NCBI GenBank assembly: GCA_012839805.1
Contig: DUMU01000015.1
Span: 1-61,486 of the forward strand
Source of the DNA: Bacillota bacterium
Lineage (GTDB): Bacteria > Bacillota > Limnochordia > Limnochordales > DUMU01
Length of the DNA: 61,486 bases
Reading direction: 5' to 3'
Below the pieces are notes generated by a model. It was not told the DNA's origin and made no database searches. It saw only the letters and a list, made by a program, of their open reading frames with translations. A program made the translations under genes and the position numbers. This document shows positions 10,009 to 60,302 of this stretch, in pieces (within the stretch, counting starts at the first letter, position 1; every line of letters starts with the position of its first letter).

Positions 10009-10065
10009 CCACTCTATCCACCTTTCTCTTAGCCAGACTGGAACGGAAGCCGATGGTGGGACAGC

Positions 10066-10102
10066 CTGGCGGACGGCTCCGCCCGGGAGTGGTCCGCCCA
10101 GG
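10066..10102 (-). other. hairpin in the rho leader
   Basis: CCTGGCGGAC (10066-10075) pairs with GTCCGCCCAGG (10092-10102) with one bulged C, forming a strong GC stem about 60 nt before the rho start. No U tract follows. The gap 10009-10410 otherwise holds only the rho promoter and the palindrome at 10297. Confidence 0.5.
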
Positions 10103-10239
10103 AAATGCCGGACGACTGAGCATTATGGCCGGGAAACGAGGATCAGACTGAAGGATAGTCGAACCACCTGGATAGATTATGTCCCGCTCGGGAAAAAAGA
10201 AACCGTCTCTGTACGCGATCGAATCCAGACTCCGTGACC

Positions 10240-10267
10240 ACTATACCATCGTTTTGGCAAGCGTCAA
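10240..10267 (-). promoter_or_regulatory. sigma-A promoter of rho
   Basis: Minus strand -35 TTGACG (10267-10262), 16-bp spacer, -10 TATAGT (10245-10240). Confidence 0.68.
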
Positions 10268-10296
10268 CCCCTGGCGAAGCGGAACGCAGCCTCGAT

Positions 10297-10314
10297 GGTT
10301 CCGGCGCCGGAACC
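10297..10314. other. perfect 18-bp palindrome between rho and the nuclease-family gene
   Basis: GGTTCCGGCGCCGGAACC, self-complementary without a spacer, 97 bp past the stop of the preceding gene and just upstream of the rho -35. No T run on either side, so an ordinary terminator is unlikely; it could be a protein site or an RNA 3' end. Confidence 0.5.
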
Positions 10315-10410
10315 GCGAGCACACCCCCTTTTGGCGTCTAAACGCCCTGCGGCCCGGCGCCGACCAGCGCGAGGGTCATGAGTCCTGGCCAGCTCTTCAT
10401 CTTACCGCCC

Positions 10411-10935
10411 TTAGCGCAGGTGCTTGCGAAAGTCCTCTGGCGTCACACTTTCGAGGAACCGGCGGAACTCCTCGAGTTCCGGATCGGACTGGGGCACCGC
10501 ACGGTTTGCGCCCGTCGCACGAGCCCTCTCCCACCCCTCAGTTGGTACCAACGCCCGGGCCGCCACCTCTTCCGACATGAAGATCGGAGCCTTCGCCCGG
10601 AGGGCCAGGGCAATGGCGTCGCTCGGCCGGGCATCGATGTCGCGTTCGCCGCCGGCGGTCCGCAGATGGATCTGCGCGTAATACGTCTCGTCCTTGAGAT
10701 CGGAGATGACCACCCGCTCTACCCGGGCGTTGAGCTCGTCCAAAATGGCCTTCATCAGATCGTGGGTGATCGGACGCGGTAGCTGGATGCCTTCCATTGC
10801 GATGTTGATGGCGTTCGCCTCCGGCGGACCGACGACTATGGGGACGTAGCTCTTTTCCTCCATATCGGTCATGACCACTACCGGTTGCATCGTCCGCTGA
10901 TCGATCCCGACGAGTTTCACCTTCATTCGCAACAT
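10411..10935 (-). CDS. bifunctional nuclease family protein (DUF151/BFN)
   Basis: COG1259/DUF151 protein of 174 residues. The BFN domain fills about 1-125: MKVKLVGIDQRTMQPVVVM, VPIVVGPPEANAINIAMEG, the helix PITHDLMKAILDEL, and RPSDAIALALRAKAPIFMSE. A charged C-terminal extension (about 130-174) resembles a helical tail. Some plant and thermophile members have DNase/RNase activity; most bacterial ones are uncharacterised. The open frame begins at a GTG (10944), but AAGGGGTG sits 7 nt before the ATG at 10935, which I prefer. Confidence 0.88.
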   Translation of the reverse strand: MLRMKVKLVGIDQRTMQPVVVMTDMEEKSYVPIVVGPPEANAINIAMEGIQLPRPITHDLMKAILDELNARVERVVISDLKDETYYAQIHLRTAGGERDIDARPSDAIALALRAKAPIFMSEEVAARALVPTEGWERARATGANRAVPQSDPELEEFRRFLESVTPEDFRKHLR

Positions 10936-10984
10936 TTTGCTCACCCCTTGCCTTCAGGGGAAATCCGCACCCACTTTCGCTTTG

Positions 10985-10993
10985 ATTATAGCA
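10985..10993 (-). promoter_or_regulatory. extended -10 promoter of the BFN gene
   Basis: Minus strand TGCTATAAT (extended -10, hexamer 10990-10985) about 45 bp before the start codon. No recognisable -35, as expected for an extended -10 promoter. Confidence 0.6.
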
Positions 10994-11001
10994 CACCGCT
11001 G

Positions 11002-12720
<1,719 letters not shown>

Positions 12721-26533: not shown

Positions 26534-29500
26534 ATGTGGCGCTGGGGGCCGCTTACGCTGCTCCAGCCGGCCGGCCTGACGGCCCTGCTTCTCCTTCCGG
26601 CCATCGTGCTGCTTCATTGGTTGCATCGCGAGCGCCAGGACCGGCGCGTTCCCAGCCTTTACCTCTGGCGGCGCCTTAGCCGCCGGGTGAGACGCCGGAG
26701 CTTCTGGCAGCAACTGCTCTCATCCGGGGTCTTCTGGCTGCAGGCCCTGGCCGCCCTTACCTTCGCCCTGATCCTTGCCCGCCCCGTCTGGACCGGGACT
26801 GGCCCCCCACCGGCGGAATGGGTCGTGATTGTCGATCGTTCCGCAAGCCTTAAGGCCAGTGCCGCCCCGTTTCTGCCGGCCGCCCCCACCCCCGCCCCGG
26901 CCGTCACCCCCGGCGGCCATCCGGCCGGAGGTCCCCTGGCCGGAGGGCCCTCGGCCAGCGGTCCACCGGCCGGGGTCGTGCCGGCCCGACCCTCTTCCCA
27001 GGCCGCGGGCAACCCGCAGCCCGCCGCCGGTGAACACGGATCGGCGAAGGACGGGTTCACCCGGGGTGAACTGCTTTTGGACCGTCTCGACCGGTTGGCC
27101 CGTGCGGCCCCACCCGGTGTCCGCTGGACGGTTATCGGAGCCGGTCCCGTTCCGCGGCTTCTCGCCCGGGACGTCGATCCCCACTCGCCGAGGTGGGCGG
27201 ACCTGCGCAGCGACCTGGGGCCCACGGCGGGGATCGCGAACTGGGAGGCGACCGGGCGGCTGGTGCAAGCGGTGATGACGGAAAGGACCGAGGAGGTCTT
27301 GCTGGCTACCGATGGCGGGATCCCTCCTGCCGTCCTGGCGGCCCATCTGCCGCAGGTCACCCGAATAGTCGATCTGGCAGGAGACCGGACCGCCGCCACC
27401 ACCCTCGCCCAGGAAGCCCCCATCGCCAATCTGGGTCTGGTTGACCTGCGCCTGCAACCGGTGGGAGACTCCCTCTCCCGCTTCGAAGTCCTGGCCGTGG
27501 TCAAGAACGGCGGCGAGGTTGAGCTCCCCTACACCCTCAGCTGGTCCACGGGGAACCGGCGGCTCGCCACCGATACCGGAAGGCTTCGGGCCGGGGAAGA
27601 GAGGCGAATCGTTCGCCGGCTCGCCCTGCTACCCGGTACTGAACTCGCCTTACATCTCACCACCCCCGGACCCGACCAGCTGGCCGAGGACGATACGGCC
27701 TTCGCGGTGGCCTTGCCGCTGCGTAGCGTCCGGGTCCTGGTTGCCTCGCCGGGAAATCCCGCTCTGGTTCGTGCTCTCTCCCTTACCCCCCGGGTGGCAG
27801 TAGAAGAGATCGCCCGGCCGGAGGAACTGGCGAGGATGGGGCCCCAGGATCTTGCCCGCTATGATCTTCTCCTCTTCGATCGCCTCCCGCCTCCGGCCTG
27901 GCCCCCCCGCCCTCTCGTCACCATCGGCCTCTCTCCCCGGGAGGTGTGGCCGGTCCTTACCCCGCTGGAGCAGGCCGCAGTTCGTCGCCTCGAGGGGACC
28001 GGGACAGAGTCCAACACCACCACCGTAGAGTGGGACGACCGGCATCCCCTCTCCCGTTACGTACCCTGGTCCGAGATCCGGGTGGAGGCCGCGGCCGCCT
28101 GGCCGGTGTTACCGGGCGCCTTGCCGCTTTGGCAATCCCGGGAGGGCGCCCTGATGCAGGTGGGAGCAGGTCTTCCACCCCGGGTCTTCGTGGCCTTCCC
28201 GCTCCAGCAATCCGACTGGCTATCGCGAGTCTCCTTCCCGATCTGGGTCAAGAACCTGGTCGACTGGACACTTCCGTGGGCCGACCGGCCCATCGGGCCG
28301 GTGCTACGCCCGGGCGATCCTTTACCGGAATGGCTCCTGGGCGTGGCCGGGGAAGCGGGGCGAGTAGTGTCCCCGCCGGCGGGGACCGCTTTGAGTACAG
28401 GAGAGGAGACGGGGCGGAACTCGTCCTCAGGCTCCAGCGCCGGCGGTTCTTCTTGGGAGATAGTCTTGCCGGACGGCCGCGCCCGGCGGCTAGGACCAGA
28501 AGAAGGGCTCCGGAACTACCGGGTCCCTGAAGATGCTCCGCCCGGGCCTTACTGGCTGCGCCGCCAGGGTGAACTGGTGGCCGGCTGGTCGGTCTCGCTC
28601 CTGGCTGCCGAGGAGACGAGCCTCGTGCCTCAGCCCGCTTTGACTCCCTCCCCCGCCCCCCGCACCGCCGGCCCGGGCACCAGGTCGCCCCTGGCCACCG
28701 CCGGCCCGCTGACTCCGGGAAAACCCTGGCTGCGGTTGCTCCTCGTTTTCTTGCTGGCCGTCCTTCTTCTCGAGCTCGGTTTGATGCTCCGGGAAGGCCG
28801 GCCGCTCCCCCGGCTCCTTGCGAACCGCCGGCCCTCCCCGGCCCGGAGGAGACAACCGGCGGACTCCCCACCCGGGCGGAGGACGCCGCCCCCGGGATCG
28901 TCCCGGCACGAGCGGCGCCTGGCCATCGCTCTCCGCCTGGTAGCTCTGCTCCTGCTCGTGGTTGCCCTGGCCGGCCCTCATCTGCCCGTCGGAACGCCCC
29001 TTTCGGCCCGCATCTACCTCGCCGACCTTTCCGACAGCATCGACCCGGCGGCCCGCGAACGGGTTCAGGCCTGGCTGCAACAGGAGCTCGGGCGCCGTGA
29101 TCGTAACCACCTGGCCGCGGTGGTGGCCTTTGGCTCCGAAGCGGTAGTCGACCGTCCCTTGCTGGCCGGGGAGGATCTCCCCTGGCCCGGTTTCACCTCC
29201 CGGCCGGAAGGGGGAGCGACGGACATAGGCAGCGCCTTGGCCCTGGGCGCAGCCCTGGCCAAACCGGAGGCACCTAGCCGGCTGGTGCTCATTTCCGACG
29301 GCGGGGAAACCACCGGCTCGGCGCTTTTGGCCGCGGAACGGGTCCGGCAACTGGGCATACCCATCGACGTCCTGCCCCTGCCTGGTGCTCTGGGGGACGA
29401 GACCGGGGTGGCCGCCCTCGACGTCGCCCCCCGGGTGCACCGGGGTGAGACCGTCCTGGCCACCTTGCTCCTTTACCATTCGGGTTTACCGGATCACGTC

Positions 29501-31699
29501 CCGCTCACCCTGCAGCTGGACGGTGGCCTCTTGTGGTCGGGGGAGATAGCAGTTCAACCGGGGAAGAATGCCCTACGATTCCCGGTCACCTTCCCGGCGG
29601 CGGGATTGGCCCGCCTGGAAGCGGTCATCTCACCCCGTCACGACGGGCTGCGGGAGAATAACCGGGCCCAAGCGCTCGTCTTCGTGACCGGAAGCCCACG
29701 GGTGCTGCTGGCAAGCCGCGAGCCAACCCTGGCGACCGCGCTGGAGCAGGGCGGCCTTCAGGTGGAGGTTCGTTCCCCCCTCACCCTTCCCGCCCGTATC
29801 GGTGACTATGCCCCTTATTCCGCTCTCATCCTGGATGACGTGCCGGCTTATCTGCTGAACAACCCGCAGCTTATGGCCATTCGCCTCTTCGTGGAACGGC
29901 TGGGCGGAGGCCTTCTGGTCCTCGGCGGCCCCAATAGCTTCGGTCCGGGCGGGTACTTCGGGACTCCCCTGGATGAGGTGCTGCCGGTCTACTCAGAGGC
30001 GCCGGAACGGGTTTACGCTCCCAGCCTCACCATGCTCCTCGTGCTCGATCAATCGGGAAGCATGGGCGATCTGGCCGGCGGCCAGACCAAACTGCAGCTG
30101 GCCCAGGAGGCGGCCCTGAGAGCGGTCTCACTCCTCTCCCCCGGCGACCTGGTGGGCGTAATCGCCTTTGAGAGTTCTCCGGTCTGGGTAGTTCCTTTGC
30201 AGCGGGCCGAAAACCAGGCGATCATCAGGACCCAGATCGGGCGCCTGCAAGCCGGCGGCGGAACTACCATTGCCCCCGCCCTCGAGGAGGCCATCCGGGC
30301 CCTGGAGGGGCTGGATAGCGCGGTCAAGCACGTCATTCTCCTGACCGACGGGCGCGGTGAGAGTAGTGATTTCTCGGCTCAGATCCGCCGCCTGCGCCAG
30401 CTAGGAGCCACCGTTTCCACCGTGGCCGTGGGCAAGGATGCCGACCGGGAGCTCCTGGCCCGCCTGGCCGAACAGGGCGAAGGCCGCTACTACTTTGCCG
30501 AAGATCCCCAGCAGGTTCCCAGTATCTTTGCCGCCGAAACCGCCACGGTGGCCCAGGACCTGAGGGTGAACCGCCGCTTCCGTCCCCGGGAAGTCCGGCC
30601 GGCTTCCTTCATCCGTGCTCTTGTACCCTCGGGCGAGCTCCCCCTGCTGGATGGATTTACCATCACCACGGCCAAGCCGGGAGCAATCGTCCATTACGTG
30701 GTCCCGCCGGAAGATTACCCCCTTTTGGCCTCCGGCCGCTTCGGACTGGGCCAGACTCTCGTCTTTACCTCCTCCCCCGCCGGTGACTGGGGAAAGTCAT
30801 GGAGGGAGTGGCCGCTCCTTACTCCCCTTCTCTTGCAGCTGGTTCGAAGCGTGCTGCCCGAACCGCCGGGAACCGGCCTCAACGCCCGCCTGGAACTCTT
30901 GGGCGATCGTGCCGAACTGGCTCTCGAAGCTCTCAATCCGGACGGAACCTACCGTCACTATCTTGAACCCCGCGCCACGTTGCTGTTCCCGGACGGCAAC
31001 GTTTTACAGGCAACGATGAACGAGATCGAACCCGGCCTCTACCGGGCGAGCTTCCCCGCCGGGCAGCCGGGGGAGTATGTCGCCACCGTTCAAGCCGGGG
31101 AAAGCCGGGTGCTCGCGGCCGCCAGCCTCCCTTACTCCGCCGAATACCGCGAAGCGGGAGCAAACCTGGCGCTTCTTTTTGAACTTTCCGCTCTGACCGG
31201 AGGACATATGCTAAGCTTCTCCGATTCGGCCTGGGACCTCCCGACCGGGCGCACGCCGGCGGGTCTACCGCTTGCTCCCTACCTGGTGTTGCTCGGCGCC
31301 CTGGTCTTCCTGGCCGATCTGGCCGCCCGTTACCTGACGGCAGCTGCCCGGGCCCGGCTGGGGCGCGCCGCCAGGGTCGTGCTGGATCGTATGGATAAGC
31401 TCCCTCTCCTCAGGAGTTTGGCCGCCGCCGGGCGGCGGGCCGGCCGGTACCTCGGGCGACGCCCAAAGCCGGCGACGGCGGCCGCGCCCGTGCCCCCGGC
31501 TGAAACTCTGCCCCCCGAGCCCACCCCGGCGGAGGACTTCGTTACCGTGGTACAAGAACGGCTCCGCCAACGCCTGGCTGAACTGCAGCGCCACCCGGTA
31601 AGCCGGTGGCAGGCAGGGCGTCCTGCCGGGGAGGATGGCACCGGCTACCGTGCCGCCCGCCTTTACCTGGCGCGGCGTCGCCGGCGCAAGCAGTCTTAG
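26534..31699 (+). CDS. giant triple-VWA membrane protein (BatA-like fusion)
   Basis: 1721 residues in one uninterrupted frame. N-terminal BatA-like membrane anchor (LLLLPAIVLLHWLHRER, about 15-30, and a second helix near 70-90), VWA-1 with MIDAS DRSAS at 101-105, then a beta region. A middle helix (LLLVFLLAVLLLELGLML, about 732-752), a basic linker, and a second anchor helix (796-817) precede VWA-2 with DLSDS at 831-835. A GATase-like segment (SALILDDVPAYLLNN, LGGGLLVLGGPNS) leads to VWA-3 with a complete MIDAS: DQSGSM (1172-1177), GGGTTIAPALEEA and LLTDGRGESS. A last helix near 1580-1602 and a basic tail end it. It looks like two usually separate proteins fused. ATG follows TGAGGAGG. Presumed role: metal-dependent adhesion/assembly in an envelope complex handled by MoxR. 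Confidence 0.85.
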   Translation: MWRWGPLTLLQPAGLTALLLLPAIVLLHWLHRERQDRRVPSLYLWRRLSRRVRRRSFWQQLLSSGVFWLQALAALTFALILARPVWTGTGPPPAEWVVIVDRSASLKASAAPFLPAAPTPAPAVTPGGHPAGGPLAGGPSASGPPAGVVPARPSSQAAGNPQPAAGEHGSAKDGFTRGELLLDRLDRLARAAPPGVRWTVIGAGPVPRLLARDVDPHSPRWADLRSDLGPTAGIANWEATGRLVQAVMTERTEEVLLATDGGIPPAVLAAHLPQVTRIVDLAGDRTAATTLAQEAPIANLGLVDLRLQPVGDSLSRFEVLAVVKNGGEVELPYTLSWSTGNRRLATDTGRLRAGEERRIVRRLALLPGTELALHLTTPGPDQLAEDDTAFAVALPLRSVRVLVASPGNPALVRALSLTPRVAVEEIARPEELARMGPQDLARYDLLLFDRLPPPAWPPRPLVTIGLSPREVWPVLTPLEQAAVRRLEGTGTESNTTTVEWDDRHPLSRYVPWSEIRVEAAAAWPVLPGALPLWQSREGALMQVGAGLPPRVFVAFPLQQSDWLSRVSFPIWVKNLVDWTLPWADRPIGPVLRPGDPLPEWLLGVAGEAGRVVSPPAGTALSTGEETGRNSSSGSSAGGSSWEIVLPDGRARRLGPEEGLRNYRVPEDAPPGPYWLRRQGELVAGWSVSLLAAEETSLVPQPALTPSPAPRTAGPGTRSPLATAGPLTPGKPWLRLLLVFLLAVLLLELGLMLREGRPLPRLLANRRPSPARRRQPADSPPGRRTPPPGSSRHERRLAIALRLVALLLLVVALAGPHLPVGTPLSARIYLADLSDSIDPAARERVQAWLQQELGRRDRNHLAAVVAFGSEAVVDRPLLAGEDLPWPGFTSRPEGGATDIGSALALGAALAKPEAPSRLVLISDGGETTGSALLAAERVRQLGIPIDVLPLPGALGDETGVAALDVAPRVHRGETVLATLLLYHSGLPDHVPLTLQLDGGLLWSGEIAVQPGKNALRFPVTFPAAGLARLEAVISPRHDGLRENNRAQALVFVTGSPRVLLASREPTLATALEQGGLQVEVRSPLTLPARIGDYAPYSALILDDVPAYLLNNPQLMAIRLFVERLGGGLLVLGGPNSFGPGGYFGTPLDEVLPVYSEAPERVYAPSLTMLLVLDQSGSMGDLAGGQTKLQLAQEAALRAVSLLSPGDLVGVIAFESSPVWVVPLQRAENQAIIRTQIGRLQAGGGTTIAPALEEAIRALEGLDSAVKHVILLTDGRGESSDFSAQIRRLRQLGATVSTVAVGKDADRELLARLAEQGEGRYYFAEDPQQVPSIFAAETATVAQDLRVNRRFRPREVRPASFIRALVPSGELPLLDGFTITTAKPGAIVHYVVPPEDYPLLASGRFGLGQTLVFTSSPAGDWGKSWREWPLLTPLLLQLVRSVLPEPPGTGLNARLELLGDRAELALEALNPDGTYRHYLEPRATLLFPDGNVLQATMNEIEPGLYRASFPAGQPGEYVATVQAGESRVLAAASLPYSAEYREAGANLALLFELSALTGGHMLSFSDSAWDLPTGRTPAGLPLAPYLVLLGALVFLADLAARYLTAAARARLGRAARVVLDRMDKLPLLRSLAAAGRRAGRYLGRRPKPATAAAPVPPAETLPPEPTPAEDFVTVVQERLRQRLAELQRHPVSRWQAGRPAGEDGTGYRAARLYLARRRRRKQS

Positions 31700-49818: not shown

Positions 49819-50979
49819 ATGGTCCGTTACAGATCCCAGGCCATCGCCGTGCTGGGAGCAGGGCATGGGGGGCAGGCCCTCGCCGCAGATCTGGCCTTGT
49901 CGGGACATCCCGTGCGTCTTTGGAACCGCACCCCGGCCCGCCTGGAAGCGATCATGACGGCCGGGGGCATACGACTTACCGGGCCTCGGCGCAGCGGCTT
50001 CGCTCGTCTCGCGCTGGTAACCACCGACCTCAGCCAGGCCATCCGCGGCGTCCGGCTGATCCTGGTGGCCACCCCGGCTACGGCTCACGCGAGCTTGGCC
50101 CGGCAACTCGCGCCCTCGCTGGTTGACGGGCAGATCATCGTCCTTTGCCCGGGCCGAACCCTGGGCGCACTCGAGACGATCCGAGTCCTGCGCGCCGCGG
50201 GTTTGAAGGCCGACGTCACCGTGGCTGAATGCTCTACCTTCCTGTTTGCCAGCCGGACGGTGGCCCCGGGGCAATCCGTCATCCATTCTGTCAAAAAGCA
50301 GGTGGCGGTCGCCGCCCTACCCGTGGAGCGTACCCCGCTGGTTGTCGAGCTCCTGCGCCGCCTCTACCCATGTTTTCATCCTGCCGCCGACACGCTGGAA
50401 ACGGGGATGGGCAACATCGGCATGCTGTTTCACCCCGCCCCCGTCCTCTGCAATCTAGCCCGGGTGGAAAGCGGAGTGGTCTTTGACCATTACACGGAAG
50501 GGATTTCGCCCGCGGTGGCCCGGCTCCTCGAGGCGCTGGATGCCGAAAGGTTGGCCGTCGCCCGCCGCCTGCGCCTGAAGCTTCCTTCGGCTCGGGAATG
50601 GCTGGCCCGTACCTACGGCGCCGCCGGTGAGAATCTGCACGAAGCGTTGCAGCATCATCCTGGGTACAAGGATATACGCGCCCCGCAAAGCCTCGACACC
50701 CGTTACCTCTGGGAGGATGTTCCGTGCGGGCTGGTCCCCCTGGTCTCACTGGGCAAGGAGTACGGGGTGCCCACCCCGGTGGCGGAGAGCCTGGTACGGC
50801 TCGCCAGCGCCATTACGGGAGTAGACTTTTACGCTCACGGGAGGACGCTGACCCGCATGGGCCTGAGTGGTCTGACGGTGGATCAACTGCGGGCAGTTGC
50901 CCGAAACGGTGAGCTACCTCAAAAGCACCTCCCCTACGTTGCAGGGCTCCCACTACCGCTCTCGGAGGCGGTTCAGTAG
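49819..50979 (+). CDS. NAD/NADP octopine/nopaline dehydrogenase family protein
   Basis: 386 residues. N-terminal Rossmann domain: IAVLGAGHGGQALAADLALS, VRLWNRTPARLEAI and ILVATPATAH. The C-terminal octopine-DH domain holds ETGMGNIGMLFHPAPVLCNL, the HHPGYKDIRAP stretch and SLDTRYLWEDVPCGLVPLVS with the conserved His/Asp region. Opine dehydrogenases reductively couple an amino acid to a 2-oxo acid; the natural pair is unknown. ATG behind GAGGAGG. Control by c-di-AMP suggests a role tied to osmotic or wall homeostasis. Confidence 0.88.
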   Translation: MVRYRSQAIAVLGAGHGGQALAADLALSGHPVRLWNRTPARLEAIMTAGGIRLTGPRRSGFARLALVTTDLSQAIRGVRLILVATPATAHASLARQLAPSLVDGQIIVLCPGRTLGALETIRVLRAAGLKADVTVAECSTFLFASRTVAPGQSVIHSVKKQVAVAALPVERTPLVVELLRRLYPCFHPAADTLETGMGNIGMLFHPAPVLCNLARVESGVVFDHYTEGISPAVARLLEALDAERLAVARRLRLKLPSAREWLARTYGAAGENLHEALQHHPGYKDIRAPQSLDTRYLWEDVPCGLVPLVSLGKEYGVPTPVAESLVRLASAITGVDFYAHGRTLTRMGLSGLTVDQLRAVARNGELPQKHLPYVAGLPLPLSEAVQ

Positions 50980-51058
50980 GAAGGTAGGCCGGCGCCGTTC
51001 GCCGGAAGTTGGCCAGCAGGTAAGCACGCACGCCGGCCACCGGTATGCTGACCACCGG

Positions 51059-51115
51059 GAAGCCGGCCGCGGCGGAGCCAGCCGGTTGGCACGCCGTATC
51101 CGCGGCTGGCTTCCT
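51059..51115 (+). promoter_or_regulatory. alternative stem-loops upstream of the B12-binding gene
   Basis: 51059-51073 and 51101-51115 form a 15-bp stem with a single G-U pair. The same right arm (51104-51112, CGGCTGGCT) can instead pair with 51077-51085 (AGCCAGCCG). The two pairings exclude each other and end 6 nt before the ribosome site GGAAGGG. It could be an attenuator or a translational switch; it does not match the cobalamin riboswitch. Confidence 0.55.
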
Positions 51116-51134
51116 GTTAAGGAAGGGATGTGCT

Positions 51135-52922
51135 ATGGGACGAACTCAACCGCCTCGTGCCCCTCGGCGGCGGGTACTGGTCGCGGCGGCCATTGGTGAC
51201 TGTGCCCACGTGGCGGGACTCCACGGGATGATCCGGATCGCCCGCCAGGCAGGATGGGAGTGCCACATGCTGGGGCCGGCCGTAACGGTCGAACGAGTGA
51301 TAAAAGCAGTTCAGGAAGTGAACCCGGAGCTGGTGGCGCTGAGCTACCGTCTGAGTCCTCAAGCCGGGAAGGAAGTGCTAGCTGATTTCTGGCAGCAGGC
51401 CCAGGCGGCGCGGATCACCGAAGGGAGGCGCTTTGCTTTCGGCGGGACGCCGCCGGTGGCCCGCGAGGCGTGCAAGCTCGGTTTCTTCGAAGCCATCTTC
51501 GACGGGAGCGAGACCCCGCGACAGGTGTACGATTACCTGGCCGCACGTACCAGCGGGGCGGCAGCGCTCTCCTATCCGTCCACCCTGGCGGAACGGATCG
51601 AGGCCGCCCGGCCCTGGCCCATCTTCCGCCACCATTTCGGGCAACCCTCGTATGAGGCCACGCTGGCCGGAGTGGCGGAACTCGCCGAGAGCGGAGTTCT
51701 CGACGTCATCTCGCTGGGCATCGACCAGAACACCCAAGAGCATTTCTTCCATCCGGAGGCGAAAGACCCCCGGCAACGGGGCGCAGGTGGGGTGCCGGTC
51801 GATACCCCCGAGCAGTTCCGGGCTCTTTACGAAGCATCCCGGCGGGGCAACTACCCGCTCATGCGCTGCTACAGCGGTACTCGTGACCTGATTCGCATGC
51901 AAGCGATGCTCCTCGAGACGATCAACCTGGCCTGGGCCGCCATTCCCCTCACCTGGTACAGCGTGCTGGATGGGCGAAGCCAGCGAGGCCTGAGGCAGAC
52001 GATCGTCGAAGCCCAGGAAGTGATGAGGTGGCTTAGTGAACGGAAGGTTCCGGTGGAAATGAATGAGTCACACCACTGGAGCCTGCGGGATGCCCACGAT
52101 GTGGTGGCGGTGGTCATGGCTTTCCTCGCCGCCTACAACGCCAAGCAAGCCGGGGTCAGAGATTACGTGGCCCAGTACATGTTCAATACTCCGCCTCTGA
52201 CGAGCTTCCGCATGGACCTGGCGAAAATGCTGGCCAAGGTGGCGCTTATCGAGTCATTGGAGGAAGAAGGGCGTTTTCGGGTCTTCCGGGAGACCCGCAC
52301 GGGACTCAGAAGTCTGCCGCTGGACATGGACGAGGGCAAGGGACACCTCGGGGCATCGGTTTTTCTGCAGATGGCGCTCCATCCGGACATCGTCCACGTG
52401 GTCGCCTATTGCGAGGCCGACCACGCGGCCACCGTCCCCGAGATCGTAGAAAGCGTCAAGATGGCCCGGGGCGCGATCGCTGACGCTCTGGGCGGTATGC
52501 CCGACCTGGCCGCCGACCCGGTGGTGATGGCCCGTCGGGACCATTTGCTGAAGGAAGCCCGAGTACTCCTCTCCGGGATCGCAGCTTTGGCCGACACCGG
52601 CACCGCTGACGAACCCGATTCCAACGATTCCAAAGATCCTTTCACCGACCCGGACGTATTGACTCGCGCGATCTCGCTGGGGCTCATCGATGCGCCGCAC
52701 CTCGCCGGCAATCCCGCCCCCGAGGCCTGCGGCCGGGTGGTCACCAACGTGGTCGATGGGGCGTATGAAGCCATCGATCCCGCCACCGGCCGCGTCCTCT
52801 CCGAAGAGGAGCGGATCACCCGTATCCTGCGAGAACGGGATCCCGCCTCCTACCGGCGCTTCCGCGGGGGTGAGGCCGAAGCCTGGGTCGAGCGACTTTG
52901 GCCGGCAGCGCTCGTACCCTGA
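51135..52922 (+). CDS. cobalamin-binding-domain protein, B12-dependent mutase-like
   Basis: 595 residues. The N-terminus is a B12-binding domain: AAAIGDCAHVAGLHGMIRIA with the DxxHxxG His ligand, then the Rossmann-like part (VERVIKAVQEVNPELVALSY) to about residue 110. A large C-terminal region follows, with a barrel-like alternation (DVISLGIDQNTQEHF, YPLMRCYSGTRDLIRMQAML, WAAIPLTWYSVLDGRSQRGL, VEMNESHHWSLRDAHDVVAV) that faintly recalls the glutamate/methylaspartate mutase large subunit. No gene for a separate small subunit is adjacent. It follows the opine-dehydrogenase-like gene by 155 bp. Confidence 0.65.
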   Translation: MGRTQPPRAPRRRVLVAAAIGDCAHVAGLHGMIRIARQAGWECHMLGPAVTVERVIKAVQEVNPELVALSYRLSPQAGKEVLADFWQQAQAARITEGRRFAFGGTPPVAREACKLGFFEAIFDGSETPRQVYDYLAARTSGAAALSYPSTLAERIEAARPWPIFRHHFGQPSYEATLAGVAELAESGVLDVISLGIDQNTQEHFFHPEAKDPRQRGAGGVPVDTPEQFRALYEASRRGNYPLMRCYSGTRDLIRMQAMLLETINLAWAAIPLTWYSVLDGRSQRGLRQTIVEAQEVMRWLSERKVPVEMNESHHWSLRDAHDVVAVVMAFLAAYNAKQAGVRDYVAQYMFNTPPLTSFRMDLAKMLAKVALIESLEEEGRFRVFRETRTGLRSLPLDMDEGKGHLGASVFLQMALHPDIVHVVAYCEADHAATVPEIVESVKMARGAIADALGGMPDLAADPVVMARRDHLLKEARVLLSGIAALADTGTADEPDSNDSKDPFTDPDVLTRAISLGLIDAPHLAGNPAPEACGRVVTNVVDGAYEAIDPATGRVLSEEERITRILRERDPASYRRFRGGEAEAWVERLWPAALVP

Positions 52923-52971: not shown

Positions 52972-54099
52972 TCATCCCAGGCTCTTTTCCAGTGCCCGGT
53001 AGTGATCGGCGGTGAGGTTGACCGTGGAAAAGAGGGTGACCCCCTCAAAACCAAGTTCGCGGACCAGTTCTACCTGGCGGACGATTTCGGCCGGGGAGAC
53101 CCAGACGGCGAGCCCGGGGTAGACCGCTCTCTCCCTTCCGGCCGCGCGGCCGGCTAACCGGGCGCGCAAAGCCGAAAGGACGGCACGGAGTTCATCCAGG
53201 TTGGTGCGGTACGCCATGGGCAACACGTAGTCCAAAACGCCCTCCGCCAACCACCTGCCCCACTCCTGGCAAGCGTTACGGTATGAAAGCTCGGGGTCGG
53301 GCACCACCGCCGCCGACAGTTGGATCCCGGGCCGCAGAGCTCGCAGGCGGCGAGCCACCCCGGTTACGAAGCCCGTAACGTTGGCCGCCCGCCAGGCGGT
53401 CCAGGCCGCCCGTCCCGCCTCGCTCCCCAGGTCTGGCCCGCCGGTGCCGGGCCGTTTCTCGCCGGTAACGGTTTCCTCCCGCCCTTCGTTTTCTTTTCGA
53501 AACTGCGCCAGCGAAGCCGGATGGAATCCAAAGGATCCCGCCTCCTCCTCGTTGTACCGGATGTAGTCCAGGTGGATCCCGTCCACCGGCCAGCGGGTAG
53601 CGAGCTCTACCAGAACCGCCGCCAGGTATTCCCGTACGGCGGGCAGCACCGGGCAAAGCCAGGCCGTACCGTATCTCCAATTGGAGAAGGGCTGCCCGTC
53701 CTGGTCCAGTTCGGCCCACTCCGGGTGACGATCGAGGACAGGCCCGTAAGCATGCCAGTACCCGGCACAGAAGACCCACACCCACGGATGGAGCTGGAGA
53801 TTACGTTCCCGGGCGAGCTGCAGCAACTCGTCTACCAGGTCGTGAGTGGCCGCCGCCTGAACGTTCGCCCCGTCGCTGCCCAGCAGAACTCGCCGGGAAC
53901 GGAACTCACCGTGTTCGGGGGCGACGCCGCTTGCGTAGGCGGCGCCGCCCCGGAAGTAGAGTTCGGGATAAACGTGAGTCGTGCCGATGGCGGCCAGCTG
54001 GTCGAAGATACGTTGGAGATGCCCTGGCTTTCGTTGCAGAAGGTCTTCGCGATTGAGCCACACGCCAACGTGAGTAAACTTCTTTTCTCCTGCCACCAT
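52972..54099 (-). CDS. GHL10-family putative glycoside hydrolase, cytoplasmic (paralog 1)
   Basis: 375 residues, glycosyl-hydrolase-like 10 (DUF4015/YngK-type) TIM barrel with no signal peptide. Landmarks shared with the two paralogs to the right: ELYFRGGAAYASGVAP, HPWVWVFCAGYWHAYGPVLD, RHPEWAEL, GTAWLCPVLPAVREYL, the active-site-type VDGIHLDYIRYNEEEAGSFG (Asp173 and Asp178) and SAAVVPDPELSYRNACQEWG. ATG behind AAAGGGG. It directly follows the sugar-binding-protein gene (69-bp gap), so the two form one operon. Substrate unknown. Confidence 0.82.
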   Translation of the reverse strand: MVAGEKKFTHVGVWLNREDLLQRKPGHLQRIFDQLAAIGTTHVYPELYFRGGAAYASGVAPEHGEFRSRRVLLGSDGANVQAAATHDLVDELLQLARERNLQLHPWVWVFCAGYWHAYGPVLDRHPEWAELDQDGQPFSNWRYGTAWLCPVLPAVREYLAAVLVELATRWPVDGIHLDYIRYNEEEAGSFGFHPASLAQFRKENEGREETVTGEKRPGTGGPDLGSEAGRAAWTAWRAANVTGFVTGVARRLRALRPGIQLSAAVVPDPELSYRNACQEWGRWLAEGVLDYVLPMAYRTNLDELRAVLSALRARLAGRAAGRERAVYPGLAVWVSPAEIVRQVELVRELGFEGVTLFSTVNLTADHYRALEKSLG

Positions 54100-54168: not shown

Positions 54169-55485
54169 TTACCGTTTCAATAGCGGCTGGATCTGTTCCT
54201 TGACCCGCCGCATGGCCGCTTCCGGCGTTTGCTGGCCGCTGAAGACGCCCTGCAATTCTGTCCAGATCGCGCTCATGTACTGGGTCGTGATGGTAAGGTT
54301 CGGGAAGGTACGCATGTTGGGACTATGAAGATACCAGACGAACTCCTTCATCCCCGGAGCCGTACCCGTCCAGAGCCGGGAGTCCGTGAGGACGGTGCGC
54401 AGGTGCGGCAGCGATCCCTTGCCGGCACAGATGCGTACCGTCTGCTCGGCAGATTCCAGATACTCGAGGAACTTCCATGCTTCCCGGGGATGCTTGGTGT
54501 TGGCAGCTATGAAGAGCATTCCCGGCTCGATCAATGAACTGTACTTCAGATCCGGCCGGTCATCCGGGTACGGGAGAGGAGCGATGCGATAACGCAGCCC
54601 GGGAGCGAGCTGGGAGAGCATCAAAGGCAGCCACTCCCCGTCCGCGGTGGCGGCCAGCCGTCCGGTAACGAAGGGGTCCTCACTCGTCCAGTATCCACCC
54701 CACGACTCCTGGAAAGCGCGTACCGCCGCGAAACCGAAGGTCTGATAAGGAAAGAGCATGAATTTGATCCCAAGGATATTGCGGGGATCGTCAGGGGTTA
54801 CCTCGCGTTTGACCGGATCATAGTAACGCCCCCCGAAGACGAGCTCCCACAGCCCGATGGAAAGCCATGGATACTCGGGGAAGAACCCCAAGCGGCGGAT
54901 TTTACCGTCAGCGCTCTTGTCAAACACCCGCCGCTGCATCTCCTGGAACTGGCCGGCGGTTTCCGGAATGGGAATGCCCTTTTCGTCGAGGATATCAGTA
55001 TTGTAGAACATCATCTTGATATCCACCGTCATGGGCAGGCCATACTGGACTCCTTCGATCCGGCCGAGTTCCAACGCAGCCGGGATGAAGTCTCCGGGCT
55101 TCAAAGCGCTCTTGGGATCGGCAAGGAAATCGTCCAGGGGCAAAGCGACCTTCTTCTCCACCAGCCCGGGAACATGGCACCAGGCGACATACCCGATGTC
55201 GAGCCCGGAACCACCGGCGATCACCACCAGTTGCTTCTCCAGATTAGTGTTGGGAATCAGCTTCACGTGGATGCCCTTTTGACTCCGGTTGAACTCGTCT
55301 ACCACCATCTGCAGCAGCTCGGCATCTTTGCCCGTCCACTGGTGGTAGAAGTTGAGCTCTTCCGGGGCCGCCGCCGAAGCCAGCCCTCCCGCCAGTGCGA
55401 AGACGAGAACGAGCACAACGGAGAAACCGCCCACCACTGCCATGAACCGCCTCCCGACCGACTGCTCACGCCGTTGCCACCTCAT
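54169..55485 (-). CDS. ABC transporter substrate-binding protein, family 1 (sugar type)
   Basis: 438 residues. A Sec signal peptide (VLVLVFALAGGLASAAAP) without a lipobox Cys, then the two-lobed SBP_bac_1 fold: ELNFYHQWTGKDAELLQMVV, YGLPMTVDIKMMFYNTDIL, WELVFGGRYYD, GRLAATADGEWLPLMLSQ and HPREAWKFLEYLESAEQTV. ATG behind AAGGAGG. No permease or ATPase gene adjoins it, so it must use a transporter encoded elsewhere or act as a free receptor. Divergent from the HTH-GHL10 gene; a perfect palindrome lies between. Confidence 0.92.
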   Translation of the reverse strand: MRWQRREQSVGRRFMAVVGGFSVVLVLVFALAGGLASAAAPEELNFYHQWTGKDAELLQMVVDEFNRSQKGIHVKLIPNTNLEKQLVVIAGGSGLDIGYVAWCHVPGLVEKKVALPLDDFLADPKSALKPGDFIPAALELGRIEGVQYGLPMTVDIKMMFYNTDILDEKGIPIPETAGQFQEMQRRVFDKSADGKIRRLGFFPEYPWLSIGLWELVFGGRYYDPVKREVTPDDPRNILGIKFMLFPYQTFGFAAVRAFQESWGGYWTSEDPFVTGRLAATADGEWLPLMLSQLAPGLRYRIAPLPYPDDRPDLKYSSLIEPGMLFIAANTKHPREAWKFLEYLESAEQTVRICAGKGSLPHLRTVLTDSRLWTGTAPGMKEFVWYLHSPNMRTFPNLTITTQYMSAIWTELQGVFSGQQTPEAAMRRVKEQIQPLLKR

Positions 55486-55518: not shown

Positions 55519-55543
55519 TGTAGTGTAGGACTTCTACACTACA
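55519..55543. promoter_or_regulatory. perfect 10-bp inverted repeat between SBP and HTH-GHL10 genes
   Basis: TGTAGTGTAG-GACTT-CTACACTACA, 34 bp upstream of the SBP start and about 75 bp before the HTH-GHL10 start. The arms also contain TACACT, close to a -10 hexamer on either strand. The obvious binding site for the adjacent HTH protein, controlling both genes. Confidence 0.75.
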
Positions 55544-55619
55544 GAAGGAAATCCTGCCGCCCGCGGTGAAAATTTTTTTGCAGGAGCAGAGTCTGCACGG
55601 GGCAGGTGAGCGGACGGTA

Positions 55620-57908
55620 ATGAAGTATCCAGACGACCATACTCTCGTGGCGAATCCCGAATCGGCCCCGGCCGAGCTCAGGTTCGCCCACTGGCTGCGG
55701 CAGGCTCGCCTCGAGCGGGGACTGAGCCTGCGACGCCTCGCGGCCGACGTCGGGCTCCACTTCGCCTACCTGAGCCAGCTGGAGCGCGGGGTTACCACCC
55801 CCTCCGAACCGGTCATCCGCCACCTGGCCGAGTACTTCCACCATCCCGCCCCCGACGAGTTGGTACTGGCAGCGGGGCGGGTGCCAGAACGGGTTCGACT
55901 CGCCCTCACCGAACGAGCCCTCGCCCAGCCGGCCTCCCTCGTCCCGGCGGCCAGCGCGCCGGCGACTCGTGACCAGGTGCTCGGGCAATGGAGGTTTGCG
56001 GCCCGCTTGGCCGCCAACGGAGGAGATAACGTACTTGCCCTGTCGCCTCCGCAGCTACCCCTGCCCGGTGCCCCGCCCCTGCCGCCCGCCTCCCCGGAAT
56101 GGCTGATCGTCCCGGAAGCACAGCTCGCCACCAGCGGCCTCGGAGCAGCGCTGGGTACACGGCCGGAGGCCGCCCTCGACGGGGACCTGGATACCTTCTA
56201 CTGGACCGAAAGGCCACCCCGGGCCGGCGACTTCCTCCTGATCGACCTCGGACACGATTATCCGGTGAACGGTGTTCAGCTTTTCATGGGAAGTTTCAGC
56301 GGTGAGTACATGCGGCCGGCCGATTACTTGTATACGGGAGTGGTTCAGCTGGCGGGGGACCAGCAAGACTGGCAGACCGTGGGCCGGCTGAACGGTCTTC
56401 CCGAGCTCTCCCTCTCCTTCCCTGCTCGACCCGCCCGCTACGTGCGAATCCTGGTCACCGCCGACCAGATCTACTGGGCACAAATCCGGGAAGTTCGCCT
56501 GCTGTGCCCGCCCGGTGCGAGCCCGCGCCGCCCCGCCTGGTTTTTCATTCGCCGGGCCGAGCAAGCGGTAGCCAGAGCCGAAGACCGGCTGGCCCGGGCG
56601 GCTACCACCGGGGCAATCGACGTCGAGGCGGTTCGGACTGAGCTCGCCAGCGCCCGGCTGTCCCTCGACCGGGCCAGGGAGGCATACCGCCGCAACCCCG
56701 CCGACGATAGCCAGATCCAGGCGGCCGCCACCCGAGCTACCACCCTGGCCGCCCGCGCCGCCGCCCATACCGTAGAAAGCCGGGAGGAAGAGATACGCGC
56801 GATCTGGATCGACCGCCCCGCGCTCCTCACCGGGCCTGCCGAACTCCGCCACCAGCTGGACCGCCTGCACGCCCTGGGTTTCAACCTGGCTTTTGCCGAG
56901 GTCTTCAGCCGGGGCGCGGCGGCCTACCCGAGCCGGGTCGCCCCGCCGGATGAGAGCGTGCGCCAGGTCTGGCGTGACGAAGACCCGCTTCTCTTCCTGC
57001 TACGAGAAGGTGCAAAACGCGGCATAGAGGTAATGCCATGGCTGTGGGTCCTCTGCGCAGGTTACGATTTCGACGAAGGCCCGCTCCTTCGCCGTCACCC
57101 CAAGTGGGCCGAACGTACGGCCACCGGGGCCATCATCGCCCCGACGCCCCAGGGTACCGCCTGGTTGAACCCGGCCTTGCCGGAAGTTCACCAATTCTTT
57201 GTCGATCTGGTAGGTGAACTGTTGGCAAACTACCCCCTCACCGGGCTGCACCTCGACTACTTGCGCTACCACGAAGAAAGCCTGGCGGCCTTTGGATACG
57301 CCCCGGCCAGCCAAGCCGCGTTCGCACGGGCGCGCTCCCGGGGGCGGGGCGCAGAAAAACCGGATTTCAACGCCTGGCGGGCCAACAACGTAACGGATTT
57401 GCTGCGCACCATCGAGCGGGTGGTTCACCGGCGAGGGAAAGAACTTTGGGCTGCCGTGTGGCCGGATCCGCAATTCGCCCGCGCCGAGATGCATCAGGCC
57501 TGGCCGGAGTGGGCGAGCGGCAGCCGAAGACGGCCCCTCGTCGACTACCTGGTAACGACCAACTACACCCCTTCGCTGGAGGCGTTCCGGCGGCAAGCGC
57601 GGGCGGCAGAAGAAGTGTTCGCCGCCGACGCGCCGGCCGGTCGTACCCGGGCCGGTCTCCTGCACGGTATCGCGAGCTGGCTGCTTACGCCCGAAGAGCT
57701 GGTCGACCAGATCACTGCCGCTCGCGAAAGCCGCCGTGCCGTGGGCCTGTGCCTGTACTCCGCCAGCACGCTGGCGGAGAAGGCCCAAAGCGCCCTGGCC
57801 GAGGGCCCGTTCCGTAACCGGGCACGGCCGCTGCGCCCGGGCGCCCCCTTCCCCAACCCGGCCACCCGGCGACGGCCGGCGGAGCCCGGCAAGCAGAGCC
57901 GGCAGTAG
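55620..57908 (+). CDS. XRE-HTH / discoidin-like / GHL10 fusion, putative sugar-sensing regulator (paralog 2)
   Basis: 762 residues, no signal peptide or membrane helix. An XRE-type helix-turn-helix (residues ~21-80: LRQARLERGLSLRRLAADVG, YLSQLERGVTTPSEPVIRHL), an F5/8C (discoidin) beta-sandwich (~158-297: ALDGDLDTFYW, DFLLIDLGHDYPVNGVQLFM), a helical linker, and a GHL10 barrel (~391-720). Where the paralogs read VDGIHLDY or VDGLHLDY, this copy reads LTGLHLDYLRYHEES: the first Asp is Thr541, while Asp546 remains. I infer that the barrel binds sugar but hydrolyses poorly and switches the HTH. The frame opens at a GTG (55566); ATG 55620 behind AGGTGAG is preferred. Divergent from the SBP gene across a perfect palindrome. 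Confidence 0.8.
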   Translation: MKYPDDHTLVANPESAPAELRFAHWLRQARLERGLSLRRLAADVGLHFAYLSQLERGVTTPSEPVIRHLAEYFHHPAPDELVLAAGRVPERVRLALTERALAQPASLVPAASAPATRDQVLGQWRFAARLAANGGDNVLALSPPQLPLPGAPPLPPASPEWLIVPEAQLATSGLGAALGTRPEAALDGDLDTFYWTERPPRAGDFLLIDLGHDYPVNGVQLFMGSFSGEYMRPADYLYTGVVQLAGDQQDWQTVGRLNGLPELSLSFPARPARYVRILVTADQIYWAQIREVRLLCPPGASPRRPAWFFIRRAEQAVARAEDRLARAATTGAIDVEAVRTELASARLSLDRAREAYRRNPADDSQIQAAATRATTLAARAAAHTVESREEEIRAIWIDRPALLTGPAELRHQLDRLHALGFNLAFAEVFSRGAAAYPSRVAPPDESVRQVWRDEDPLLFLLREGAKRGIEVMPWLWVLCAGYDFDEGPLLRRHPKWAERTATGAIIAPTPQGTAWLNPALPEVHQFFVDLVGELLANYPLTGLHLDYLRYHEESLAAFGYAPASQAAFARARSRGRGAEKPDFNAWRANNVTDLLRTIERVVHRRGKELWAAVWPDPQFARAEMHQAWPEWASGSRRRPLVDYLVTTNYTPSLEAFRRQARAAEEVFAADAPAGRTRAGLLHGIASWLLTPEELVDQITAARESRRAVGLCLYSASTLAEKAQSALAEGPFRNRARPLRPGAPFPNPATRRRPAEPGKQSRQ

Positions 57909-57950: not shown

Positions 57951-60302
57951 ATGATGACGGAATCAGTCCTATCCGGTAGCCCTCCGCGTCTACCCATCCG
58001 GTCATCCCCTTCAGCACGTTCATTACTGTCAGCGGGGTCAACGGGGTCAAAACGGCCAACGCGGCCATGGGGAGGCTTGCCGGGCGGGCGGCTGCTTATG
58101 GCCCTCCTGACCGCGCTGAGCGTGCCGGGAGTGCTCGAGCTAGTCCCGCCGGGCGGTGGCGTGACCGCAACCGTGTCCGCGGCCGCGGCGGCCAATTCGC
58201 AACCGGAATGGGTGATCATTCCCGACCTCAAGATCACTACCAGCAATTGGGGTGAAGCTCAGGGGATGGAGCTCGCCCGGGCCATCGACGGCGACCTCGC
58301 CACCTTCTACTGGTCGGGGAGAGAAGTACGGGCTGGCGACTGGCTCGAGCTTGATCTGGGGGCTGAGTATGAGTTGAGCGGGGTTCGTTTCCTCATGGCT
58401 ACCACCTCTGCCCCCCCGGCGGGAAGCGCATCGACTAGCTCCGATACGGCGACCGGTTCGGTGAACACGGTTCGTCCCTATGATTACGTTTACTCCGGCC
58501 AGATCCTGGTTCGCCCCGCGGCCGGCGCCTGGAGGACCGTGGGCGAGCTGGACGGGCGGGCCGAAGTGGAGATCCTTTTTCCCACCCAGCCCGTGCGTTA
58601 TCTGCGGCTGCGGGTGACCCGGGACCAGGTCTACTGGGTGCAGATCCGCGAGATCCAGCTCCTCGCCCCACCGGAAAAGGTGGCGGGTGATCGTGCGTAT
58701 CGCCCCGCGTGGCTCAAGATCCGTGCCGCCGAAGAGGCCTACACTGAAGCAGTCGAGGCTCTCGACGCCGCCCTAGCCCGCTGGGACGACGTCGATACCG
58801 GGGCAGTAGAAGGGCTCCACGCCCGGATCAGAGCCCTGCTCGAGCGCGCCCGGGCCGCCTACGACCGTGGCGCCGATGACGAGGTGGTGCAGCAGGCCAC
58901 CGAGGCCCTCGACCTCTCCCGGGCCGCCGCCGCTCTCGTCATCGAATCCCGTCCTGCCGAGGTACGGGCAGTATGGGTCGACCGTCCCGCCCTTATCGAA
59001 GGGCCCGATTCGGTGCGCGCCCTCCTGGACCGCCTGGCCAAACTCGGGGTCAACCTCATCTTCCCCGAGATGGTCTGGCGGGGTGCGGCGGCCTTCCCGA
59101 GCGAGACCGCACCGCGTGACCCGGGCTACTGGCGCTGGGGCGACATCGACCCTCTCGCTTTCATTACCGCCGAGGCCCACGCCCGGGGCATCCAGGTAGC
59201 GCCCTGGGTCTGGGTCTTCGCCGCCGGCTACTACCACGAGTTCGGCCCGGTACTCGAAGAGCACCCGGAGTGGGCGGAACTCTCCCGGGACGGTTCACCC
59301 TTCTCGCCGACCGAGTGGGGCACCGCCTGGTTAAATGCGAGTCTACCCGAGGTGCGGGCTTACCTCATTCGCCTTCTCGTCGAGATCGTCACCCGGTACG
59401 ACGTGGACGGGCTGCACCTCGACTACATACGGTTCAATGAGGAAAGTCACATTCCGTTCGGATACTCGCCGGCGACCCTCGAACGCTTCCGGGCGGAGAC
59501 CGGCCTGGACGCCCGCTCCCTCACCCCGGGCACGCCGGCCGCCGCCCGCTGGGATAGCTGGCGGGAAGCGCTGGTAACCAGCTTCCTCGAGGAGGCGGTT
59601 CAGCAGCTGCGGCAGGTTCGGCCCGGCCTGCATATCTCGGCGGCGGTGGTCCCCGACCCGGAGGCCGCCCGGCGGGAGACCCACCAGAACTGGCCTCTCT
59701 GGTTGCGGCAGGGTCTCGTCGACTTCGTCGCCGCGATGAATTACACCCCGTTCCCCGGTGAGTTCTGGTCCCGCACCCGCCTCGCTCAGCAGGCCGCGGC
59801 AACACCGGCCCGGATCTTGCCCGGCCTTGGCATCTGGCTCGTCACGCCCGAGCGGATGCTCTCCGAAATCGCCTCCGCTCGTGAACTGCTTTCTCCCGGG
59901 GTGGTTCTCTTCGCCGCCAGCACTCTGCAGGGCGAGTTCTACGATCGCCTGCTGGCGGGCCCCTTCCGTCAAGGAGCCTCCTCCCCGCTCTCCGACCCCG
60001 AAGGAGCCTGGCTACGGCAGTGCACTGCGTTCGTGCAGAAGTGGACCCAGCCCCGGGCCATCCAGGTCTTGCCCGCGCCCCTCGCCGCGGGGGTGGGCCG
60101 GCTCGCCCAATTGCTCCCTTCACTCCCCGGCCAGCCGCCGGGCCGGGCTGAGGATCGCGACCCGGTCACGGCCTGCCAGGAGTTGCTGAGCGAAGCCGAA
60201 CGCCAGATCGCGGGCGGGCAGCTCCAAGACTCCAGCCAGGCTGCCGTGGAGAGGCTCGCGAACGACGCCCGTTACCTTATGATCTTGGCGGAACTCCTGT
60301 AG
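57951..60302 (+). CDS. exported discoidin-GHL10 putative glycoside hydrolase (paralog 3)
   Basis: 783 residues. A long N-terminus with a membrane segment (LLMALLTALSVPGVLEL, about 48-65) targets it outside. An F5/8C-like domain follows (~85-245: AIDGDLATFYWSGREVRAGD, LELDLGAEYELSGVRFLMAT), then a helical spacer and the GHL10 barrel (~340-680) with WRGAAAFPSETAPRD, VAPWVWVFAAGYYHEFGPVL and VDGLHLDYIRFNEESHIPFG (Asp486, Asp491 both kept). Same domain order as paralog 2 without the HTH, which it follows by 42 bp. Probably the active extracellular enzyme of the locus; its substrate is unknown. Confidence 0.83.
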   Translation: MMTESVLSGSPPRLPIRSSPSARSLLSAGSTGSKRPTRPWGGLPGGRLLMALLTALSVPGVLELVPPGGGVTATVSAAAAANSQPEWVIIPDLKITTSNWGEAQGMELARAIDGDLATFYWSGREVRAGDWLELDLGAEYELSGVRFLMATTSAPPAGSASTSSDTATGSVNTVRPYDYVYSGQILVRPAAGAWRTVGELDGRAEVEILFPTQPVRYLRLRVTRDQVYWVQIREIQLLAPPEKVAGDRAYRPAWLKIRAAEEAYTEAVEALDAALARWDDVDTGAVEGLHARIRALLERARAAYDRGADDEVVQQATEALDLSRAAAALVIESRPAEVRAVWVDRPALIEGPDSVRALLDRLAKLGVNLIFPEMVWRGAAAFPSETAPRDPGYWRWGDIDPLAFITAEAHARGIQVAPWVWVFAAGYYHEFGPVLEEHPEWAELSRDGSPFSPTEWGTAWLNASLPEVRAYLIRLLVEIVTRYDVDGLHLDYIRFNEESHIPFGYSPATLERFRAETGLDARSLTPGTPAAARWDSWREALVTSFLEEAVQQLRQVRPGLHISAAVVPDPEAARRETHQNWPLWLRQGLVDFVAAMNYTPFPGEFWSRTRLAQQAAATPARILPGLGIWLVTPERMLSEIASARELLSPGVVLFAASTLQGEFYDRLLAGPFRQGASSPLSDPEGAWLRQCTAFVQKWTQPRAIQVLPAPLAAGVGRLAQLLPSLPGQPPGRAEDRDPVTACQELLSEAERQIAGGQLQDSSQAAVERLANDARYLMILAELL

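Follow-up and report, generated by a model that had tools for sequence, protein, structure and literature searches.

BzdR consists of an XRE-type helix-turn-helix (HTH) of approximately 90 residues, a linker and an effector domain derived from shikimate kinase that has no detectable kinase activity. It is a one-component repressor until benzoyl-CoA, an intermediate of its pathway, binds (PMC3602430). In Clostridium thermocellum, the transmembrane anti-sigma factor RsgI6 uses a GH10 domain as an external polysaccharide sensor. This domain shares 57% identity with the xylanase Xyn10D but shows very little catalytic activity of its own, and the Xyn10D promoter was among the tested SigI6 targets (PMC4711584). 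The GHL10 family includes Cwp19, a secreted cell-wall hydrolase for which Asp196 was proposed as a catalytic residue (PMC5765458).

The window, i.e. the whole stretch of 61,486 nucleotides that was analysed, is contig C49 of a 2.78 Mb genome (G000) of the family Limnochordaceae. It encodes a 762-aa protein (55620..57908, + strand; ATG at 55620, stop at 57908) in which an XRE HTH, a linker, an F5/8C domain, a three-helix bundle and a GHL10 barrel form a single continuous chain, as supported by ORF calls, Pfam, AlphaFold2 and orthologues. An alternative in-frame GTG at 55566 would yield 780 aa. The protein belongs to the XRE family by two Pfam matches above the curated cut-offs, HTH_3 (residues 26–73, E 6.9e-10, 39.3 bits vs. 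a cut-off of 23) and HTH_31 (residues 22–75, E 1.3e-9, 38.7 bits vs. 27). Further matches were obtained for F5_F8_type_C (residues 181–292, E 7.8e-9, 36.2 bits vs. 28.2) and GHL10 (PF02638; residues 391–685, E 3.7e-29, 102.3 bits vs. 27.9). By these cut-offs the two domains are assigned to F5/8C (CBM32-like) and GHL10, with sugar binding and glycan cleavage as their respective putative functions.

An AlphaFold2 model of the whole chain (29-row alignment, mean pLDDT 81) recovered helices at residues 18–102, a beta-sandwich at 160–297, a helical bundle at 306–383 and a TIM barrel at 388–732. On the + strand, these are the HTH region (55671..55925, Pfam core at residues 22–75), the F5/8C domain (56097..56510), the three-helix bundle (56535..56768) and the GHL10 barrel (56781..57815); the linker (residues 103–159; 55926..56096) was poorly predicted. 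Foldseek matches included CBM32 structures, as expected for the beta-sandwich, and the barrel matched Cwp19 (PDB 5OQ2) with a Z of 35.6 and an rmsd of 2.4 Å over 310 residues. No signal peptide was found in the regulator, and the three regulators analysed here had no hydrophobic segment (highest 19-residue Kyte–Doolittle mean approximately 1.0–1.3), whereas this value peaked at 1.7–2.6 close to the N-terminus in secreted paralogues. The structure prediction, the profile matches and the hydropathy thus bear out the sequence-only reading, which had described an XRE HTH in the first ~80 residues, an F5/8C-like domain and a full GHL10 barrel in one polypeptide without signal peptide or membrane helix.

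The layout resembles that of BzdR in its XRE HTH, its linker and its enzyme-derived C-terminal effector domain. The effector, however, is F5/8C plus a glycosidase-like GHL10 barrel instead of a kinase-like domain, the sensor appears to be a copy of a neighbouring, presumably regulated enzyme, and the operator sequence is a different one. Among NCBIfam models, the HTH scored best against PRK08154.1 (anaerobic benzoate catabolism regulator; E 7.4e-5), but this match covered the HTH only and reached 22 bits against a cut-off of 204 for this BzdR family. With RsgI6 the protein shares the predicted use of a glycoside hydrolase-type domain as a sensor. In contrast to RsgI6, which senses outside the cell, it appears soluble and cytoplasmic, carries its own DNA-binding domain, and has neither an RsgI Pfam match nor a hydrophobic segment. 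Cwp19 differs in having no DNA-binding domain. By analogy, the window regulator would work like BzdR and RsgI6 while belonging to neither family. The earlier designation as a likely new class is too strong, since XRE heads on enzyme-derived effectors (BzdR) and a glycoside hydrolase sensor (RsgI6) are both known.

Full-length orthologues were present in G001 (same genus; 74% overall identity) and G002 (another genus of the same family; 53–55%). The HTH region was 83% identical to that of the G001 orthologue. Both the fusion and the gene order were identical in all three Limnochordaceae genomes examined (G000, G001 and G002). Between the G000 and G001 regulators, dN/dS pairs were 0.11/0.93 for the HTH, 0.17/1.95 for the linker, 0.08/1.36 for F5/8C, 0.37/1.23 for the helices and 0.15/1.03 for the barrel, which indicates purifying selection on every segment, linker included. 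A reading in which a sequencing error joined two genes, or in which translation begins after the HTH, has next to no chance of being right. An assembly or frameshift artefact was ruled out by the same fusion in two other genomes and by selection at the codon level across all segments, and a separate internal start by the constrained linker and by the spacing of Met codons, the next one after the start coming no earlier than residue 223.

In other families of the order (11 genomes), the only matches to the HTH were weak, general XRE ones. In a profile search of 398 Bacillota genomes, close relatives were confined to Limnochordaceae and to two genomes of a single further genus, and a scan of an 84,980-species collection returned only the same Limnochordales genomes and a weak Nocardia HTH; both surveys started from this HTH and would miss an unrelated HTH fused to GHL10. 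A scan of 22 other GHL10 proteins found no HTH in any of them, and the N-termini of an additional 16 from Bacillota were mostly secreted-like, as judged by eye. So far, the fusion is limited to three Limnochordaceae genomes, and these HTH-based surveys, of the kind proposed earlier, found no wider spread of the architecture.

Upstream of the regulator, a divergent gene encodes an extracellular sugar-binding protein of an ABC importer (54169..55485, − strand; SBP_bac_1 E 4.3e-21, synteny), with a stand-alone cytosolic GHL10 protein (52972..54099, − strand; Pfam) downstream of it. The gene following the regulator encodes a secreted F5/8C-GHL10 protein (57951..60302, + strand; Pfam, tree), a sister paralogue of the regulator's sensor part. 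In G000, G001 and G002, the sugar-binding protein and cytosolic GHL10 genes lie on one side and the regulator and secreted F5/8C-GHL10 genes on the opposite side. GHL10 proteins are expanded in Limnochordaceae, with 14, 14 and 9 matches in G000, G001 and G002, respectively, vs. 0–5 per genome elsewhere in the order.

A perfect inverted repeat, TGTAGTGTAG-GACTT-CTACACTACA (55519..55543), lies between the divergent binding-protein and regulator genes and is conserved across the three genomes with the general form TGTAGTGTAG-N5-CTACACTACA. At up to three mismatches, the palindrome occurred once each in G000, G001 and G002, always at the regulator locus, and was absent from the order's 11 remaining genomes. 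Unique and conserved by phylogenetic footprinting, it is a candidate binding site for the regulator's HTH. A relaxed form, GTAGNGTA-N2..9-TACNCTAC, gave six sites in five genomes, all six at HTH-family genes or cognate solute-binding-protein genes, while a reversed-pattern control gave none. One of these sites (G000:C1:2643-2661) precedes a binding-protein gene that is unlinked from its regulator. The G001 orthologue of this gene is divergent from an XRE HTH gene of the ADP-ribosylglycohydrolase type; in G000 the pair is on different contigs. Since no regulator gene is linked there, the site is a candidate target independent of autoregulation.

Seven HTH-family genes were found: the three HTH-F5/8C-GHL10 genes and four HTH-ADP-ribosylglycohydrolase genes in G000, G001, G014 and G312. 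By locus, in no matching order, these four are L054 4811-6511 (L054 being from G001), L055 5270-7324, L095 196-1845 and L096 238-1890. Within G000, the HTH region had just one close relative, and this protein and its G001 counterpart combine the HTH with an ADP-ribosylglycohydrolase domain (PF03747; E 5e-46 and 6e-50). G014 and G312, the two genomes outside Limnochordaceae, come from a distant family of the phylum; their proteins matched the HTH profile with E 4e-33 and 4e-32, and the same architecture was read by eye. The HTH region was 43–54% identical to those of the HTH-ADP-ribosylglycohydrolase proteins and the G002 orthologue. The NDD and D-x-D metal-site-like motifs of the enzyme domain were retained, by eye. 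These genes mostly adjoin sugar ABC genes, and downstream of one G014/G312 regulator lie genes for a glyoxalase-like protein, a solute-binding protein and two permease-like proteins, according to translations read by eye.

The proteins thus share the HTH module with the window regulator and have the half-site TACACTACA upstream, but carry PF03747 as the sensor instead. This 9-mer was found exactly, within 300 bp upstream, in all seven HTH-family genes; none of 2000 shuffles produced an exact 9-mer common to the four divergent HTH-family upstream regions. The operator of the G001 HTH-ADP-ribosylglycohydrolase gene has an N6 spacer vs. N5, and in G014 and G312 the full palindrome was absent and only the half-site present. 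As TACACTACA occurs at all seven genes despite their different sensor domains, the HTH head and its DNA site seem to travel together while the sensor differs. Binding of the palindrome by a different regulator is unlikely, since it is found at both classes of HTH-family gene. A search of a literature library found no description of HTH-glycosidase or HTH-ADP-ribosylglycohydrolase regulators, and the combination of glycosidase-like and ADP-ribosylglycohydrolase sensors on one common head appears to be new. The unique conserved operator, the synteny and the paralogues with a common HTH and operator half-site lend good support to a one-component DNA-binding regulator that would sense through a glycosidase-like domain.

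We hypothesize that the protein is an autoregulated cytoplasmic one-component repressor that senses through a duplicate of the very enzyme under its control, a reading that we consider likely. Its computed basis is one conserved polypeptide, an operator tied to the HTH family, a sister enzyme and synteny. An XRE HTH dimer would bind TGTAGTGTAG-N5-CTACACTACA in the divergent promoter and repress the solute-binding protein and the cytosolic GHL10 hydrolase on one side, and its own gene and the secreted F5/8C-GHL10 hydrolase on the other. An oligosaccharide released by the secreted enzyme would be imported and bound by the F5/8C-GHL10 sensor, presumably as a glycan ligand. Binding would loosen the HTH from the DNA and induce the locus. 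The duplicated F5/8C-GHL10 part would have lost or weakened its catalysis. The sequence-only reading of a one-component sugar regulator with a glycosidase-like sensor is thereby strengthened by the operator, by the paralogues and by a conserved neighbourhood of sugar-uptake and GHL10 genes, with sugar binding remaining a putative property.

Repression is most likely judging from the position of the operator: the distance from its end to the start codon of the binding-protein gene is 33 nt in the window and, as read off the sequences, approximately 38 and 57 nt in the relatives, so that it would cover the promoter. Conversely, the ligand-bound regulator could recruit RNA polymerase from the palindrome as an activator. 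In its favour, a sigma-70 promoter scan of the intergenic region recognised nothing clear, and a second conserved element, GGCAGGATTTCCT (55546..55558, − strand), lies next to the operator, on its far side as seen from the solute-binding-protein gene. An element resembling GGnAGGAnnnnCCt directly adjoins the operator in all five solute-binding-protein promoters (window, L048, L053, L126 and L123), even where the regulator gene is not adjacent. It may represent a −35 region recognised by an unusual sigma factor or an additional binding site, and it could belong to an activator. Activation by the regulator itself is nonetheless unlikely, as an operator 33–57 nt from the start codons would overlap the likely core promoter.

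The ancestry of the sensor also speaks for the main reading. A tree built from 35 GHL10 domains placed the three regulators as sister to the three adjacent secreted proteins (support 99/98), with a stem branch of 0.58 changes per site vs. 0.15 for the secreted proteins. The G002 regulator has retained a C-terminal extension that resembles the secreted enzymes. Given the sister position and this extension, the simplest history would be that the sensor arose by duplication of the enzyme next door, with the signal peptide exchanged for the HTH, and has evolved faster since.

Of the residues that are invariant in the 32 remaining GHL10 domains from the order, the regulators kept D455, P494, W496, D546, R549, Q626, W628, W631 and Y649, except that the Gly of the DG motif was changed in one orthologue. 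All three regulators differed at the otherwise conserved positions A464G, M647T, W583F and D541 (to T/A/A). Loss of D541 was dropped as proof of lost catalysis because three of the 32 other domains also have no Asp541. The catalytic residues of Cwp19 failed as a test of activity: Asp196 corresponds to Tyr547 of the regulator, is Tyr or Phe in all compared Limnochordales GHL10 proteins and is not conserved in the whole GHL10 subgroup; Arg132 falls near Cys479.

These residues bear on whether the protein is a bifunctional trigger enzyme, with GHL10 still acting as a cytosolic hydrolase on the imported oligosaccharide and the HTH repressing its own locus when substrate is scarce. The retained invariant residues and the purifying selection on the barrel (dN well below dS) would fit, but the changes specific to all three regulators, their longer stem branch, the fact that the divergent operon has a cytosolic GHL10 gene of its own and a shift of constraint from the barrel to F5/8C make this rather doubtful. 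The same retained barrel residues and the strong purifying selection on F5/8C and barrel weigh against a constitutive autoregulator whose HTH works ligand-free, with F5/8C-GHL10 as a passive vestige of gene fusion. That the HTH is modular and found with two unrelated C-terminal domains would suit such a protein, which we regard as highly improbable.

Within the repressor reading, the constraint shift points to a specific part of the sensor. Between G000 and G001, F5/8C and barrel were 86 and 76% identical in the regulators vs. 79 and 81% in the secreted enzymes, F5/8C being the most identical part of the regulator pair. A second genome comparison gave 70 and 57% for the regulators vs. 60 and 68% for the secreted enzymes. 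The interaction between F5/8C and barrel had z-scores of −2.2 and −3.1 in these two comparisons, which are not independent, having one genome in common. When set against the secreted enzymes, the regulators show constraint shifted from the barrel to F5/8C, which suggests that F5/8C matters for sensing and may be the main sensing module. The GHL10 barrel had earlier been named as the ligand-sensing domain, whereas conservation points at least as much to F5/8C. We give an even chance to a modular family in which the XRE head and operator half-site are kept and the sensor is swapped for whichever hydrolase domain fits the locus, ADP-ribosylglycohydrolase in one branch and F5/8C-GHL10 in another, the GHL10 sensor being a duplicate of the regulated enzyme with its carbohydrate-binding module as the main sensor.

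The locus would represent a still legible duplication of an enzyme into the sensor of a switch that probably controls the sister copy, and it allows the head, the operator, the target genes and the parent enzyme each to be identified. For BzdR, the evolution from enzyme to sensor has reportedly been reconstructed by engineering. Here, an operator predicted to single-base precision and an adjacent parent enzyme make this evolution testable on natural pairs. The regulator's ligand should be a substrate or product of the pathway, offering a handle on the substrates of the largely uncharacterised GHL10 proteins, and the common head with swappable sensors could become a biosensor chassis.

Elsewhere in the window, an open reading frame of 1721 codons spans 26534-31699, and a 625-aa ORF with weak corrinoid-protein/aminomutase-like matches (51045-52922) adjoins a dehydrogenase-like gene (49819-50979). 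In G001 (contig C6, L054 about 9059-12652), long ORFs contained the regularly repeated peptides FQSHTGSIGT and SIPHWFDWN, which look like a translated CRISPR array.
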